38,888 bases of DNA from Nanobdellati archaeon. Its GTDB lineage: Archaea > Nanobdellota > Nanobdellia > Woesearchaeales > JAADFO01. Location of the stretch: NCBI GenBank assembly GCA_013152815.1, contig JAADFO010000002.1:1-38888 (forward strand), given 5' to 3'. The position numbers and the translations under genes are program-made. Below are positions 1,600 through 34,208 of the stretch, piece after piece (positions within the stretch are counted from its first letter, which is position 1; every line of letters starts with the position of its first letter). The notes below the pieces were generated by a model, which saw nothing but the letters and a program-made list of their open reading frames with translations, did no database searches and was not told the DNA's origin.

Positions 1600-3494
1600 G
1601 TCAGCTTATAGATCTTTTCTTTATCGTTCAGAACGATCTTTTTATCGCCCTCGCTGTTTTGTCCGTCATTATTATTTTGGGATCCGCCGCCGCCATTAGC
1701 GTTATTCGTGGACTCGTCGTTACTCTGTTTATCCTTCTTTTGAAGTTTTTCGTTCTTCGTCACGATCTTAGAAAGAGTCACAGTTCCTTTGAGGTCTACC
1801 GTGTATTCTTTCGGATTTTCAGTATCCTGATTATCGGTAATCAGCATCAGAGCGTCAGATACTTTTGTATCCGTCGTTCCAGAGAATTTTGTCGTCCCAT
1901 CTTGATTGTTCAGGATAAAGCTCCCAATGACTTTATCTTCCTCTTGGTGAAGATTCTTTTTGTCTATTAGATATTTATAAGACTTGTCGTCTGCACCAAC
2001 AAGAACAGGCACATCAAGTTTGCCGAAAGAGATGGTGGCGACCTGGGTGCCGGGTAATCTCATCTGGAGTCTTTTATCTGGCTGCAACACAACAGCATGA
2101 TCCTTAGAAGTGATATGCCCAAGATTGACATCATCCTCTGAGCTGACATGCAGATTATCAACGGTTATGTCGCCGACCTTGCCGGAAAAAGAGATGGTCG
2201 TGGCACCAGGATAATAGTCTATGAACACGGTATCAAAGGAGGTTTTCATTTTATCATTTATCTCCAGACCGTTCTCTGTTTTCTTGAAGAAGTGCTCTTT
2301 GTTATTGAACAAAATCAAGGTTGATGCATCGTCATCAGGGCGGGATTGAATCTTTACCTCAAGTTCAGGGTTTTTGCCAACTTCAGGCTCGTATGCATAA
2401 AAATATCCTTTCTTAAGAAGATTAACTGATTGCATAAACCCCTGCTTGTCAATCTTGAGACTAACCTGAGAACCGGTGATTAACTGAGAAACAGTGTGGG
2501 TTTCATCAGGCATATCCCCTCTATGTATAGTAAAGGTTTCATCCCTGTAGAAGTCAGCATTGTTTTCTCCTTTGAGGGTCAAGGTGTCATCTTTCTTGCT
2601 TACCGTAACTTCGCTCCCTTTCCAAAGGGTTACTTTGGTTGATCTGTCTGCATCGGTTACCTTGAGTGTTGGATTACTCGCACTTCCTAAGAAACGACCC
2701 TCAGAACCTCCTCCTTCATACACGACTGGACCGCTCGTTACCTCCACCACATACTCCCCCTTCTGGTTGAGCTGCACTCCTTTTGGAAGGGTATACTGGT
2801 TGTTGCTGTAAGAGAGGGTACTTGTCTTATCCATACCAGAGAGGTCTAATTCAAGGAGATCGTTGACCGTGAGAGAGATATCTTTAGGGCTTGTGTGCGT
2901 CTTCACCTCGATTGTTTCCATGCCCTTGACATTATACCCATCGATCTTGAACCCGCCGTCAGGTGTGCTCGAAACAATATCCTGGTCACGAAGATTGGCC
3001 AACTTCAGCTTTGTCGTGGTAGCTCCGACCGTGTTGATGAGATAAATGTCATCGTCTTTTTTTTCGTATACAAGGTTTCCGTAATTAACTTGAACAACGG
3101 CCGGAGAGAGAGAAGAGAAGTACTCACCCGCAGCATCTCTGTTCTCATCGATCTTTCCGTCCTTCTGGAAATAGGCATCGGCGAGGTCTTTGAATTTAGT
3201 CTTGTCTGAAACTGTTGTATAGTCGTCCTTGAAGAAGTCATCGACCTTATTCTCATACTTCCCGAGAAGAAACTCCACAGAATCTTCATAACCATGAGGT
3301 GTTCCCTCATACGCCATCGCTTGCTCCATGGCTGCGGTAGGATTTTTCTCATAATATGTGGTGAAGTCCAACAGAACCTTATCCGGTTTCCAAGAGTTGA
3401 TATCCTCAGGCACAACACCGCCACCGTCCTGCGCAACGGCAAAGGGCAGCAGGAGCAGCGCCAGCACCAACAGCAGTGTCATTTTCCTGAGCAT
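1596..3494 (-). CDS. Large secreted beta-rich surface protein (N-terminal part)
   Basis: 632 residues. The N-terminus (MLRKMTLLLVLALLLLPFAVAQ) is a clear Sec signal peptide. What follows is a helical segment (about 30-120) and a long, strand-rich, Thr/Asp/Lys-rich ectodomain with recurring short motifs such as VTLWKGSEVTVSKKDDTLTLKG. I do not recognise a named family. The start at 3494 has a good Shine-Dalgarno (GAGGTG, plus-strand 3500-3505, 5-nt spacer) and overlaps the stop of the pilin-like gene by 1 bp, so the two are one operon. The ORF ends in a Gly/Asn/Gln-rich linker and IYKLT at a TGA that lies in a 5-bp tandem duplication, after which the next frame continues naturally. Base composition is visibly AT-richer than most of the window. 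It is probably an envelope or surface-layer component. Confidence 0.8.
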   Translation of the reverse strand: MLRKMTLLLVLALLLLPFAVAQDGGGVVPEDINSWKPDKVLLDFTTYYEKNPTAAMEQAMAYEGTPHGYEDSVEFLLGKYENKVDDFFKDDYTTVSDKTKFKDLADAYFQKDGKIDENRDAAGEYFSSLSPAVVQVNYGNLVYEKKDDDIYLINTVGATTTKLKLANLRDQDIVSSTPDGGFKIDGYNVKGMETIEVKTHTSPKDISLTVNDLLELDLSGMDKTSTLSYSNNQYTLPKGVQLNQKGEYVVEVTSGPVVYEGGGSEGRFLGSASNPTLKVTDADRSTKVTLWKGSEVTVSKKDDTLTLKGENNADFYRDETFTIHRGDMPDETHTVSQLITGSQVSLKIDKQGFMQSVNLLKKGYFYAYEPEVGKNPELEVKIQSRPDDDASTLILFNNKEHFFKKTENGLEINDKMKTSFDTVFIDYYPGATTISFSGKVGDITVDNLHVSSEDDVNLGHITSKDHAVVLQPDKRLQMRLPGTQVATISFGKLDVPVLVGADDKSYKYLIDKKNLHQEEDKVIGSFILNNQDGTTKFSGTTDTKVSDALMLITDNQDTENPKEYTVDLKGTVTLSKIVTKNEKLQKKDKQSNDESTNNANGGGGSQNNNDGQNSEGDKKIVLNDKEKIYKLT

Positions 3495-4762
3495 CAGGGC
3501 ACCTCGATGACATAGGCAGTCTTGTTGATGAACACCCCGTCGTCGAAGAGCAGGACCTCGAAGAAGTGCTCTCCCTGATCAGCCATGAGGGGCGTATAGG
3601 TAAGCGACGATCCATTGAAAGCAAAGGGACCGGTGACATATCCGGTGTAGGGAAAGTCAGGAAGGGGGGATGCGACCGGGAAGCTGTGGCGGAAGGTCAC
3701 TCCGACGGCAGCGCGCAGACGCAGGGAATCTGCCGGAACGGTCTGGGTGATCTCGATGGGCACCGCTTCCCTCACCAGGACAGGACCGTCCTGCAGCTCC
3801 AGGAAGAGGGTGTGGTTGCCCACATCCTCTGGAAGAGGCGTGAACCTGAGCACACCTGCAGACCTGTTGATGAAAAAGCCGGGCGTGTGCATGCTGAAGT
3901 TGACATCGCTCTCATTGAGCGCGTCGAAATCATAGGAGAAGGGCTGGCCGACGACTGCCCGGAGGGGAGCAAGGTTGGTGAACCTGTTCTCAGGGGTGGT
4001 GTCAAAATCATAGATCGAGCTCACCATGAAGACCAGGGGGAAACCGAGAAGTTCCTCATCACCCTTGATGACATAGACGACCTCATTCTCCCGGTAGGCA
4101 TGCACAGAGACATCCATGCCGAACTGGTTCATGAACGTGGGATCGATCTCATCGGGAAGGGCAAGCTCCATGTCGGCGATGGCCTTCCCCACATAGAGCG
4201 CGTGGCCGAATTGGGTAGTCAGTTCGGTGCGGAAGGCATCGACGGTCAGCACCTCGTCATCGAGGGTCATCTCCAGAGTGTAGGATGTCTCGAAGATCAC
4301 CTTGCTCTCGGTGATGGTTGCCAAGGTATGAGGTTCTGCCAATACCTTGACCGGATAGGGGAAGTCCTGGAAATCGTTGAGGCACGAAGGGAGCACCTCA
4401 TCCATGTAAAGAGAGAGCTGTGAAGCAACCTCTTCATCTGTCGGCCGCGTATCCATGCCCTTGTCATACCAGGCAGCGACAGAGGACATGATCGTATCCA
4501 CCCTCGGCTGGTCATCGGGAAGGTGGGTGAAACCGCCCTGGGAGCCCGCCAGGACCAGGGCCTGCCGGCCTGTCTGCCGCATGCAGGCCTCGACATAGGA
4601 CTGGAGCGGAGCTGCCTTCTGGGGCGTCTTCTGCCGAAGCCCTGTCTCGGTCTGCGCAGGCCCCACTGCAGAGGGTTCTGCGATGGAAAAGAACAGGACA
4701 GCTGCTGCGAGAAGAACAAGACCGATGATGATGAAAAGGCTCACCTGACCTTTAGGATGCAT
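3494..4762 (-). CDS. Pilin-like membrane-anchored protein with Ig/cadherin-like domains
   Basis: 422 residues from the ATG at 4762. The N-terminus MHPKGQVSLFIIIGLVLL resembles an archaeal class III (type IV pilin-like) signal, with KG/Q before the hydrophobic helix. An extracellular helical/mixed part (about 35-250) follows, then a putative-Ig-like stretch from about 262 (VGQPFSYDFDALN...GVLRFTPLPEDVGNHTLFLEL) and a second related one to the C-terminus. It is the first gene of the surface operon. An ATG seven codons upstream (4783) is open, but a TATA box at 4789-4796 puts the transcription start close to 4762, so the shorter, leaderless form is preferred. Role inferred: surface or pilus-associated protein; no enzymatic motif seen. 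Confidence 0.7.
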   Translation of the reverse strand: MHPKGQVSLFIIIGLVLLAAAVLFFSIAEPSAVGPAQTETGLRQKTPQKAAPLQSYVEACMRQTGRQALVLAGSQGGFTHLPDDQPRVDTIMSSVAAWYDKGMDTRPTDEEVASQLSLYMDEVLPSCLNDFQDFPYPVKVLAEPHTLATITESKVIFETSYTLEMTLDDEVLTVDAFRTELTTQFGHALYVGKAIADMELALPDEIDPTFMNQFGMDVSVHAYRENEVVYVIKGDEELLGFPLVFMVSSIYDFDTTPENRFTNLAPLRAVVGQPFSYDFDALNESDVNFSMHTPGFFINRSAGVLRFTPLPEDVGNHTLFLELQDGPVLVREAVPIEITQTVPADSLRLRAAVGVTFRHSFPVASPLPDFPYTGYVTGPFAFNGSSLTYTPLMADQGEHFFEVLLFDDGVFINKTAYVIEVP

Positions 4763-4788
4763 TATGGCTCTATTTCTGAGCATGATGA

Positions 4789-4796
4789 TATATAAA
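4789..4796 (-). promoter_or_regulatory. TATA box of the surface operon
   Basis: TTTATATA on the minus strand, with its centre about 30 nt from the ATG at 4762. The spacing implies leaderless or near-leaderless transcription and decides the start codon. The mobile element at 4812-5106 sits immediately upstream. Confidence 0.6.
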
Positions 4797-4811
4797 CATT
4801 ACTATCTGGGA

Positions 4812-5106
4812 GGCTCTGGAGAAAGTTACGCTTTCGCGTGGTCAGCATCAGGCTCGGCCACAGTAATGAGTCTGCTTCTGCCGTTCCGGCCCCGCACCTG
4901 GTTACGCTCAGTTGACACGCAATATGGAGCATGAAGCGCCATTACGCTGCCATGCTGTGCATCTGCAAGGCAGCGATGCGGAACAACGGGTTCCGCTTCC
5001 TTTGATCAAACTTTCGTGAAAGTTTGGGGGCAACCCCCGAAACTCCTTCGCTCCTGTCTTGGATAATGCCTCGCAAAGGATGCTGACCTCACTTTCTTAC
5101 AGAGCC
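4812..5106. mobile_element. MITE-like non-autonomous element, copy A, with 9-bp target-site duplication
   Basis: Flanked by the perfect direct repeat TATCTGGGA (4803-4811 and 5107-5115). The ends are inverted: GGCTCTG...CAGAGCC at the tips, then GAAAGT, then GGTCAGCATC on the left mirrored by GATGCTGACC on the right, with an extra GAAAG-TTACG-CTTTC hairpin in the left end. Inside are more hairpins: GCTGCC/GGCAGC, GCGGAAC-AACGG-GTTCCGC, AAACTTTC-GT-GAAAGTTT and GGGGG-CAA-CCCCC. There is no conserved reading frame. A copy about 90% identical by eye lies at 31680-31975. It inserted between the zinc-ribbon gene and the surface-operon promoter. No transposase is present in this window. Confidence 0.85.
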
Positions 5107-5124
5107 TATCTGGGAAGGGCAAAC

Positions 5125-31620: not shown

Positions 31621-31679
31621 GAAGCGATGGCGAGGGAAACGAGGAGGTCTTGTTTCAGCCGGCTCGACCATCTTCTGAC

Positions 31680-31975
31680 AGCTCTGTAGAAAGTTACGCT
31701 TTCGACGTGGTCAGCATCGGACTCGTCCACCGATGAATATACCTCTTCTGCCGTTCCGGCCCCGCACCTGGTTACGCTCAGTTGACACGCAATAGGGAGC
31801 ATGAAGCTCCATTACGCTGCCCTGCTGTGCATCTGCAAGGCAGCGGTGCGGAACAACGGGTTCCGCTTCCTTTGATCAAACTTTCGTGAAAGTTTGGGGG
31901 CAACCCCCGGAACTCTTCCGCTCCTGAGCAGGGTAAGGCCTCGCAAAGGATGCTGACCTCACTTTCTACAAAGCC
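31680..31975. mobile_element. MITE-like non-autonomous element, copy B, with 9-bp target-site duplication
   Basis: Same element as at 4812-5106, about 90% identical by eye over 296 bp. The flanks are tCTTCTGAC (31671-31679) and cCTTCTGAC (31976-31984), a 9-bp duplication with one mismatch. Both copies use the same boundary and duplication length. The ends are inverted (aGCTCTGTAGAAAGT left, ACTTTCTACAAAGCC right; GGTCAGCATC/GATGCTGACC inside), and the internal hairpins are conserved, including the perfect GGGGG-CAA-CCCCC. It inserted 15 bp upstream of the metS TATA box. No reading frame is shared between the copies. Confidence 0.85.
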
Positions 31976-31989
31976 CCTTCTGACCGAAG

Positions 31990-31998
31990 TTTTTTAAA
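31990..31998 (+). promoter_or_regulatory. TATA box of metS
   Basis: TTTTTTAAA, centred about 28 nt before the ATG at 32022 and immediately downstream of the mobile element's right target duplication. Confidence 0.6.
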
Positions 31999-32021
31999 GC
32001 ACGCTGCGTTCTTCAGTCGCC

Positions 32022-34208
32022 ATGGAAGCTGATAGGCCTGCAAAGCGCATCCTGGTGACCTCGGCATTGCCCTATGCCAACGGCCCCATCCACATCGGCC
32101 ATCTCGTGGAATACATCCAGACAGACATCCATGTCCGGTTCCTCAGGCTCCTGGGCAAGGATGTCATCTACTGCTGCGCCGACGACACCCACGGCACGCC
32201 CATCTCCATCAAGGCAGAGCAGCTGGGCATCAGGCCTGAAGAGCTCATCGCACAGACCCAGAAGGAACATCTGGAGGATTTCTCATCGTTCCACATCTCC
32301 TTTGACTCATACTATTCCACCAACTCTGCGGAGAACCAGGAATACGCCAACAAGATATTCGGAGAACTGAAACAGAAAGGGCTCATCTACCAGAAAGAGG
32401 TCGAGAACTTCTACGACGAGAAAGAGCACCGGTTCCTTCCGGACAGGTATGTGAAGGGCGAATGCCCGAAATGCGGCGCCAAGGACCAGTACGGCGATGT
32501 CTGTGAAGCCTGCGGCTCGACCCACAAGCCGACCGATCTCATCAACCCTTATTCAGTGCTGTCCAAGACCAAACCCATCAGGAAGAAGTCGATGCACTAC
32601 TTCTTCAGGCTCAGCGCCCTCTCGGAGAAGCTGGACCATTGGCTCAGAGGAAACAGCAAACTCCAGCCAGAGATCGTGAACTATGTCGGAAACTGGATAA
32701 AGGAAGGACTGCAGGACTGGGACATCTCCAGGGACGGCCCCTATTTCGGCTTCAGGATACCCGGAGAGGACGACAAGTATTTCTATGTGTGGCTCGACGC
32801 TCCCATCGGCTACATCTCCTCGACCCAGCATTGGTGCAGGCAGCACGGCCTTGATGCAGAAGAGCACTACTGGAAGAGCAGGGACAGCAGGATCATCCAC
32901 TTCATCGGCAAGGACATCATGTATTTTCATTTCCTCTTCTGGCCTGCCATGCTCATGGAATCAGGGTTCAACCTGCCGGACAACCTTGTGGTCCATGGTT
33001 TCCTCACGGTCAACGGAGAGAAGATGTCCAAGTCACGGGGGACCTTTCTCACGGCGAAGGACTTCCTCAGAAGAGCAGACCCTGAGTTCCTCAGGTATTA
33101 CTACGCAGGCAACCTGTCCCACAGCATCAACGACATCGACCTGAACTTCCAGGACCTCCAGGAGCGGATCAACACCGAACTGGTCGCCAACGTGGCCAAC
33201 TTCTTCTACAGGGTATTGTCCTTCACCCACCAGAACTTCCAGGGAACGACCGGCAAGGTGAAAGACACGAAGACCGCGACAGCCTGGTCTGCCCTGTTCG
33301 GGCAGGTCAAGGAAGCGTTCCAGTCCTTCGAATACCGGGAGGCGGTGAAGCGGATCATGCATCTCAGCACCCTGGGAAACCGCTATTTCCAGGAAAAAGA
33401 GCCATGGAAGCTCATCAAGGAAGACCGGGAAGAGACCCTGTCTGTGCTCACCCTCTGCGTCAACCTGGTCAAGGACCTGACCATCTCCCTGAAACCCATC
33501 CTGCCTGTCTTCACCGCTGCCATCGAGAAGCAGCTCAACCTCAAGGAGCTCACATGGAAAGACCTTGACTTCAGGCTGGAAGGACACCGGCTGGGAACCC
33601 CGAAGATCATCCTCAGGCCGACCGAGATCATATTCGATGACATCAAGGAAGACAAAAAAGACAAGCAGGACAAGAAAGACAGACAAGACAAGAAACACAG
33701 CCAAGACAAGAAACACAAGCAAGACAAGACAGACGATGCTTCTGGTGATTTTGGACTCCTGAACCTGAAGGTTGCGGAAGTGCTCGAAGCGAAGGAACAT
33801 CCCGACGCAGACAGGCTCCTGGTGCTGCAGATAGACCTCGGAGAGGAGCAGCGGCAGCTGGTGGCAGGCATCAGGAAGCATTATCGTCCAGAAGAGCTCG
33901 TCGGAAGGCACATCGTCATCGTCGCAAACCTCAAAGAGGCCACGCTGCGGGGCAAGAAGAGCCAGGGAATGCTCCTCGCCGGCCAGGAAGGGGAAAAGCT
34001 CGTCCTGGTGGAAGCCCCAAAAAGCAGGCCAGGAGACCAGGTGACGGTCCCGGGCATCACCCCGAACCAGGAGGAGATAACCATCGACGATTTCAGTACC
34101 GTAAAGATCCTCGCTCTCGACGGCAGGGTGCTCTGGGACGGGAAAGAGCTCAGGACAGGGACAGAACCCTTACGATGCCAGGGCATCGCCAGAAGCAGGA
34201 TCGGCTGA
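32022..34208 (+). CDS. metS: Methionyl-tRNA synthetase with C-terminal tRNA-binding (EMAP/OB) domain
   Basis: 728 residues. Class I catalytic core: ALPYANGPIHIGHLVEY (HIGH at about 22-25), the zinc knuckle CPKCGAKDQYGDVCEACG, the WLDAPIGYIS pocket and GEKMSKSRGTFL (KMSKS). An anticodon-binding helical domain follows (about 380-540). A highly charged linker (about 544-572) repeats QDKKxxQDKK and is encoded by a purine-rich repeat. It leads to an OB-fold tRNA-binding/dimerisation domain (about 580-690; LKVAEVLEAKEHPDADRLLVLQIDLG). The 3' end overlaps the convergent Cys-repeat gene by 39 bp. The protein charges initiator and elongator tRNA-Met. Confidence 0.97.
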   Translation: MEADRPAKRILVTSALPYANGPIHIGHLVEYIQTDIHVRFLRLLGKDVIYCCADDTHGTPISIKAEQLGIRPEELIAQTQKEHLEDFSSFHISFDSYYSTNSAENQEYANKIFGELKQKGLIYQKEVENFYDEKEHRFLPDRYVKGECPKCGAKDQYGDVCEACGSTHKPTDLINPYSVLSKTKPIRKKSMHYFFRLSALSEKLDHWLRGNSKLQPEIVNYVGNWIKEGLQDWDISRDGPYFGFRIPGEDDKYFYVWLDAPIGYISSTQHWCRQHGLDAEEHYWKSRDSRIIHFIGKDIMYFHFLFWPAMLMESGFNLPDNLVVHGFLTVNGEKMSKSRGTFLTAKDFLRRADPEFLRYYYAGNLSHSINDIDLNFQDLQERINTELVANVANFFYRVLSFTHQNFQGTTGKVKDTKTATAWSALFGQVKEAFQSFEYREAVKRIMHLSTLGNRYFQEKEPWKLIKEDREETLSVLTLCVNLVKDLTISLKPILPVFTAAIEKQLNLKELTWKDLDFRLEGHRLGTPKIILRPTEIIFDDIKEDKKDKQDKKDRQDKKHSQDKKHKQDKTDDASGDFGLLNLKVAEVLEAKEHPDADRLLVLQIDLGEEQRQLVAGIRKHYRPEELVGRHIVIVANLKEATLRGKKSQGMLLAGQEGEKLVLVEAPKSRPGDQVTVPGITPNQEEITIDDFSTVKILALDGRVLWDGKELRTGTEPLRCQGIARSRIG
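33651..33732 (+). repeat. Purine-rich degenerate repeat encoding the MetRS linker
   Basis: GACAAG/GACAAGAAA units repeated about every 12-15 bp encode DKKDKQDKKDRQDKKHSQDK. This linker joins the synthetase core to the OB domain and is probably variable in length. Confidence 0.75.

Follow-up and report, generated by a model that had tools for sequence, protein, structure and literature searches.

The window, by which we mean the whole stretch of 38,888 nucleotides that was analysed, carries two copies of a short repeat element on its forward strand. Copy A (295 bp, positions 4812 to 5106), recognised by direct reading, BLAST and alignment, has terminal inverted repeats (TIRs) GGCTCTGGAGAAAGT / GGCTCTGTAAGAAAGT and lies between two identical target-site duplications (TSDs) of 9 bp, TATCTGGGA (4803 to 4811 on the left and 5107 to 5115 on the right; 9/9 matches). 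Copy B (296 bp, 31680 to 31975; direct reading and alignment) is flanked by TCTTCTGAC on the left (31671 to 31679) and CCTTCTGAC on the right (31976 to 31984), which agree at 8 of 9 positions. To the left of copy A, a gene on the reverse strand (3494 to 4783, with a likely start at ATG 4762) has its TATA box, TTTATATA (4789 to 4796, reverse strand), 15 bp outside the left end of the element. Downstream of copy B, a TATA box, TTTTTTAAAG (31990 to 31999, forward strand), precedes an ORF on the same strand (32022 to 34208), whose start ATG is 46 bp from the element end and whose predicted product, judged from its N-terminus, is methionyl-tRNA synthetase-like.

In a pairwise alignment the two copies are identical at 267 of 293 aligned positions (91%), with three one-base gaps, and the ends of copy A form imperfect inverted repeats (GGCTCTGgAGAAAGT / GGCTCTGTaAGAAAGT). 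Outside the duplications their flanks show no homology (local scores of 13 and 10 in 300 bp), so that a segmental duplication as the origin of the pair is ruled out. The two copies share no ORF of at least 80 aa in a common frame. The combination of repeat and duplications is confirmed to be far beyond chance. The original prediction, made from the letters of the window, thus described the pair correctly: two copies of about 295 bp and about 90% identity at unrelated sites, 9/9 and 8/9 duplications, imperfect inverted-repeat ends, a series of internal hairpins that are all present in the sequence, and no conserved frame.

The middle of the element (element positions 84 to 215) is a discrete module of 132 bp, hereafter the core. 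It occupies positions 4895 to 5026 in copy A, between CCCCG and GGGG, and 31765 to 31896 in copy B (direct reading and covariance model), on the forward strand in both. In copy A it comprises hairpins H1 (loop GGTTACGCTC) and H2 (loop ATGAA) at 4895 to 4943, a part also found in tRNA introns, followed by three hairpins defined by alignment and covariation: H3 (CGCTGCC...GGCAGCG; 4945 to 4975), H4 (GCGGAAC...GTTCCGC; 4978 to 4996) and H5 (CAAACTTTC GT GAAAGTTTG; 5007 to 5026).

A BLAST search with copy A against its own draft genome (1.49 Mb in 76 contigs, 90.8% complete; a DPANN, Woesearchaeota-like archaeon) gave 19 matches, corresponding to about ten two-ended elements plus solo or decayed ends, and we count about 15 relatives of copies A and B there. 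Four are long copies (A, B, L003 and L004), and the shorter forms measure about 165 bp (L005, L006, L007 and L011), 120 bp (L008) and 55 bp (L015). The whole-genome search that had been proposed for further copies with 9-bp duplications was productive: most copies have such duplications, exact or nearly so, among them exact ones in L003 (GTCTTGATA), L006 (CATTTGCCC), L007 (TCTTGTTCC) and L011 (TTGTCCACC), while L008 has none. These forms span 55 to 296 bp and contain neither a transposase gene nor a conserved ORF. With TIRs, TSDs at independent sites and no internal transposase gene, copies A and B and their kin are MITEs. The solo or decayed ends (L010, L013, L014, L018, L052 and L053) are remnants of older insertions.

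MITEs are mobilised in trans, and genomes of the order to which this archaeon belongs contain a candidate transposase. Of 353 genomes from the order, 104 contain the end motif GGCTYTGTAGAAAR, often many times over, whereas the reversed control pattern gave only scattered single matches; pairs of this end at a spacing of 120-300 bp that are bordered by 9-bp duplications turn up frequently. A search for PF01609 in the TIR-rich genomes led to full-length elements of about 890 bp, which encode a 270-aa DDE transposase (PF01609, IS5-like), have the same ends as the MITEs (GGCTCTGTAGAAAGT) and are bordered by exact 9-bp duplications. Three of them have ends of type GGCTC[AT]GTAGAAAGT: L257 (890 bp, duplication ACACCAACA), L261 (901 bp, CTTATAAGC) and L272 (889 bp, GTTAAAAAG); L265 and L275 are likewise autonomous, with good ends and exact 9-bp duplications, and similar elements occur in sister lineages. 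The transposase scores 45 bits against PF01609 (DDE_Tnp_1; cut-off 23), its DDE residues can be read by eye in DGTGF, LMDKGFDAE and NIVESLFS, and relatives of it are found in 83 of the 353 genomes. It shares with the IS5 family (IS903-like) the PF01609 DDE transposase, the small size of the IS and the 9-bp duplications, yet its score against the NCBIfam model IS5_2 (NF033579), the best of all models at 120.4 bits, stays below the cut-off of 140. The ends, of the GGCT(C/T)TGT type, also resemble those of IS903, and we know of no IS5 member with a TATA-linked target.

One genome (G047) holds both partners: an IS that is flanked by TIRs but has lost its TSD, and a MITE that bears the core, has this same TIR and retains a 9-bp TSD. 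The genome of copies A and B, at 90.8% completeness, gave no match to PF01609 or to the transposase of the relatives, and of ten ORFs tested beside solo ends in relatives, three had no match and those with a family match were host genes. Because autonomous elements share their ends and 9-bp duplications, these MITEs are best explained as cross-mobilised by the IS5-like clade, which would now be absent from, or unassembled in, their own genome. The trans-acting transposase of the original prediction thus gains support; the full-length element that it proposed to look for exists in relatives and was not detected in the genome itself.

The position of the TATA boxes beside copies A and B recurs throughout the family. 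In all ten elements examined in the genome (10/10), an archaeal TATA box lies about 15-17 bp outside one end, and the same spacing is seen in practically every one of 24 elements that were selected by TIR and duplication alone, a set that includes full-length IS copies. Twenty further elements, fetched afterwards, served as a test set. Pooled over many genomes, 41 of 46 insertions have a TATA-like match (TATA boxes being here matches to a regular expression) starting 14-18 bp from the element on one flank, three of them on both, and the remaining five show no signal under that expression. Positions 14-18 hold 66 matches, where the rate at positions 22-54 predicts 2.4; between positions 19 and 25 there is none. 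The starts are concentrated at offsets 15, 16 and 17 (24, 20 and 12 matches), with nearly none elsewhere. Read outwards from the element, the flank consists of the 9-bp duplication, a purine followed by AA (BRE) and TTTATAWA at 15-22, a composition that comes only from flanks chosen for the match; the BRE begins right after the duplicated 9 bp. The start codons are concentrated at 43-49 bp from the end of the element, usually at about 45 bp, a spacing that fits leaderless mRNAs.

An ordinary MITE inserting at random could leave a similar picture if selection purged every insertion that does not lie just ahead of a promoter, and in gene-dense genomes with short intergenic gaps promoter-proximal survivors are indeed expected. 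We consider this very improbable. The free sequence on the far side of the insertions has a median of about 70 bp (from crude ORFs), so half of the sites offer more room than that, yet the TATA offsets peak within 2-3 bp; with this much room, selection in favour of promoter-near sites would hardly be expected to hold the spacing to about 1-2 bp, and purifying selection alone fails to explain its precision. Nor does selection account well for the same spacing being kept in elements whose transposases are only 32-38% identical, from the same and from other orders of the class. It is also kept in elements with other TIRs, including core-bearing ones in G041. Insertion is not random, and from these distances we infer that the basal promoter directs integration.

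Under promoter-directed insertion, the transposase complex would be positioned by the basal promoter, either through TBP-TFB bound to BRE/TATA or through the BRE-TATA DNA itself. Insertion would then take place where the preinitiation complex ends on its upstream side, sparing BRE/TATA and the coding sequence, and the element would thereby persist in a gene-dense genome. That the transposase reads the sequence or bend of BRE/TATA directly, with no help from TBP or TFB, is a sub-variant of promoter targeting with a real chance of being correct, if somewhat short of even: BRE and TATA could hold all the target information, and DDE_Tnp_1 is the one domain recognised in the transposase. Against this, the 9-bp duplication ends where the BRE starts, as steric positioning by TFB would give, although sequence cannot separate the two.

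Solutions of this kind are known from elsewhere. In bacteria, TnGBS/ISLre2 (p-MULT 3) and members of the ISKra4 group (p-MULT 4) insert at a distance of 15-17 bp before the −35 boxes of sigma-A promoters, and for the archaeal ISH6 a promoter or intergenic preference has only been raised as a possibility (PMC3942029). The likeness is close, as both those groups and the present family are DDE transposons that settle at a set distance of 15-17 bp before a core promoter element and leave the promoter intact; those with near-perfect TIRs insert in both orientations, as the family of copies A and B does. Those groups, however, are bacterial, Mutator-like and directed to the sigma-A −35 box, whereas the present elements are IS5-like, with PF01609 as the sole Pfam match of their transposase and nothing Mutator-like matched, and face the archaeal BRE/TATA. 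Ty3 and the TRE5-A element of Dictyostelium also integrate harmlessly in compact genomes at a fixed spot (PMC8632968, PMC5391098), set relative to a promoter factor assembly, as proposed here; they are retroelements at Pol III genes, in contrast to a DNA transposon at archaeal basal promoters with putative tethering. In the literature searched (open papers only) we found no archaeal report of a DNA transposon directed to a fixed distance from TATA, and, as far as searched, neither the transposase clade nor its promoter-fixed target has been described. If correct, archaea would here have their own version of the answer to compact genomes that TnGBS gives in bacteria and Ty3/TRE5-A in eukaryotes; the spacing suggests how a transposon lives in a gene-packed genome without breaking genes, and tethering of the transposase by TFB/TBP becomes testable with purified parts.

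We then turn to the core. Across 18 instances from several families of the order its five helices align, and 16 of 34 base pairs show compensatory changes; 97.2% of the cells are paired, against 34-48% when the columns are slid by 1-3, and none of 500 shuffles reached the observed covariation score. This evidence, in which structure prediction had no part, supports the suggestion that the conserved internal hairpins are a selected structure, and the compensatory changes that were to be looked for are there. Such a signal is to be expected from DNA hairpins as well as from RNA hairpins. Compared with Rfam, the core matched no family at or near threshold, and a known Rfam RNA was rejected as its identity.

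Forms of 165-175 bp have no core, and at its position carry an "empty" hairpin: the filled CCCCG[core]GGGG is replaced by CCCCG-TA-GGGG, both in the genome of copies A and B and in G041, while G239 has CCCCG-GA-GGGG and G047 a similar small hairpin. Empty and filled pairs thus exist in four lineages (the own genome, G000, and G041, G047 and G239), and many elements of about 120-240 bp with paired TIRs are found in the order. Perfect duplications flank forms that have no core (L006, L007 and L011 in the own genome; L152, L157 and L181 in G041), so the hairpins are evidently unneeded for transposition, and by this comparison the core is dispensable cargo. The empty forms could be deletions and not empty sites; that two lineages share an identical TA junction speaks for empty sites over repeated deletion.

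Could the core nevertheless be an integral part of the transposon, bound by the transposase or regulatory, with the short forms being decayed? Its conservation and covariation in elements with several TIR types would fit, but the perfect TSDs of the core-less forms in the own genome and G041 do not, nor does its presence in arrays of G239 and G232, in which no such TIR or TSD was found, and, in part, in tRNA introns, and we regard this reading as improbable. Taken together, the comparisons make it very probable that copies A and B belong to MITEs mobilised by IS5-like transposases, with promoter-directed insertion and a nested, structured cargo core. The MITE part of the original prediction holds; what it lacked was the promoter-fixed target and the empty/filled modularity of the hairpin core. 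Prokaryotic MITEs in general are short and non-coding, with TIRs, TSDs and stable hairpins, and are moved in trans (PMC10969869), from which the present ones differ in their fixed promoter spacing and in a discrete covarying hairpin module with empty and filled forms.

By the covariance model, 71 of the 353 genomes from the order contain the core, roughly 16 of them with strong full-length matches. A search for the exact core motif GGTTACGCTCNNTTGACACGCAA over 84,980 species returned 34 stretches, all in archaeal records, titled Woesearchaeota, Nanoarchaeota, 'DPANN group archaeon', 'archaeon' and, once, 'Candidatus ainarchaeum'. In this last record (L155) the motif is apparently outside Woesearchaeota, and horizontal spread is possible. 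The core sits within elements of differing ends, GGCTCTGTAGAAA in the own genome and G047 and GTAWGTAAWAAGTC in G041, and within a single genome, G179, it is found with at least GGCTCTGTCCGAAA, GAGGTTGGTGCTAA and GGCTGCGTTCAAGA ends. The several TIRs around one core in G179 (L101-L108) suggest an exchange of cargo between IS5-type sublineages. The core is not confined to MITEs of the A/B type, because its loci in G232 and G239 are hairpin arrays in which neither IS5-type ends nor a TSD was detected. In G239 (L093-L100), long nested-hairpin arrays surround the core, of types GACGG-hairpin-CCTACG and GAGTCGGGG...CCCCGACTC.

Apart from the transposon, the hairpin module poses a puzzle of its own, and its link to tRNA introns is real. 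An H1-H2 module (loop GGTTACGCTC, linker AYACGCAA and a stem with an ATRAA-type loop) also interrupts tRNA genes in relatives, at the T-loop of several tRNAs and at other places, and removing the insert restores tRNA-Leu (L036), tRNA-Pro (L025) and tRNA-Val (L038). Removal was by brute force over many cut pairs, with only clear cases counted, and the restoration concerns these H1-H2 inserts of relatives and not the MITE core itself. The H1 stem covaries in the introns too (CAACTG/CAGTTG, CAAATG/CATTTG, CAACGG/CCGTTG). Several introns have an additional intron-closing helix, whereas the MITE core has no convincing one. The literature assumes that archaeal tRNA introns transpose, by a mechanism that it describes as unknown (PMC4090602), and similar intron modules at several tRNA positions imply movement (Fujishima et al. 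2010, as cited in PMC4090602; also PMC3293823). Alike modules at several tRNA positions are found here as well, with the difference that ours is common to the cargo of a DNA transposon, which offers a handle on the spread of archaeal tRNA introns.

The core is a structured module set into the apex of the C4G/G4 hairpin. Most likely it was gained in one or a few events and has kin among the hairpin modules of tRNA introns, whose sites are hairpin loops as well. It would probably act as RNA (folding, splicing or insulating), or else be a mobile hairpin in its own right. Alternatively, MITEs may have captured a structured RNA of the host, for instance one derived from a tRNA intron, that is cargo only and not itself mobile. 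This proposal, compatible with the MITE reading, is plausible without being favoured: the H1-H2 module inside tRNA genes whose tRNA-Leu, -Pro or -Val is restored by its removal speaks for it, but it sits less easily with the same hairpin apex having empty counterparts in four lineages and with the patchy occurrence of the core (71/353 genomes). In the boldest version of the mobile-module reading, the TBP-TFB preinitiation complex would attract the family, whose spread through tiny genomes would thereby do no harm, and the cargo would be a second, nested mobile element: a hairpin of RNA or DNA that enters the apical loops of other hairpins in MITEs, hairpin arrays and, as introns, tRNA genes. 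Transposons would then be connected with the movement of archaeal tRNA introns. We put this version forward only tentatively and hold it to be rather doubtful.

Some further observations concern the family and its surroundings. Contigs end about 85-140 bp inside elements in G025, G016, G087, G164 and G041 (e.g. L044). The elements appear to fragment metagenome assemblies of these archaea, and copy numbers appear underestimated because contigs stop inside elements. Many tRNAs carry T-loop inserts of the H1-H2 type, some with a second insert, which ARAGORN misses (L130, L131, L132, L139, L036, L025 and L038, from genomes G110, G111, G057 and G007). Finally, at L031, L032 and L022 (G039, G011 and G019) hairpin inserts are flanked by duplicated tRNA 3' ends or by a direct repeat of about 18 bp, flanks unlike the 9-bp duplications and perhaps due to another integration route.
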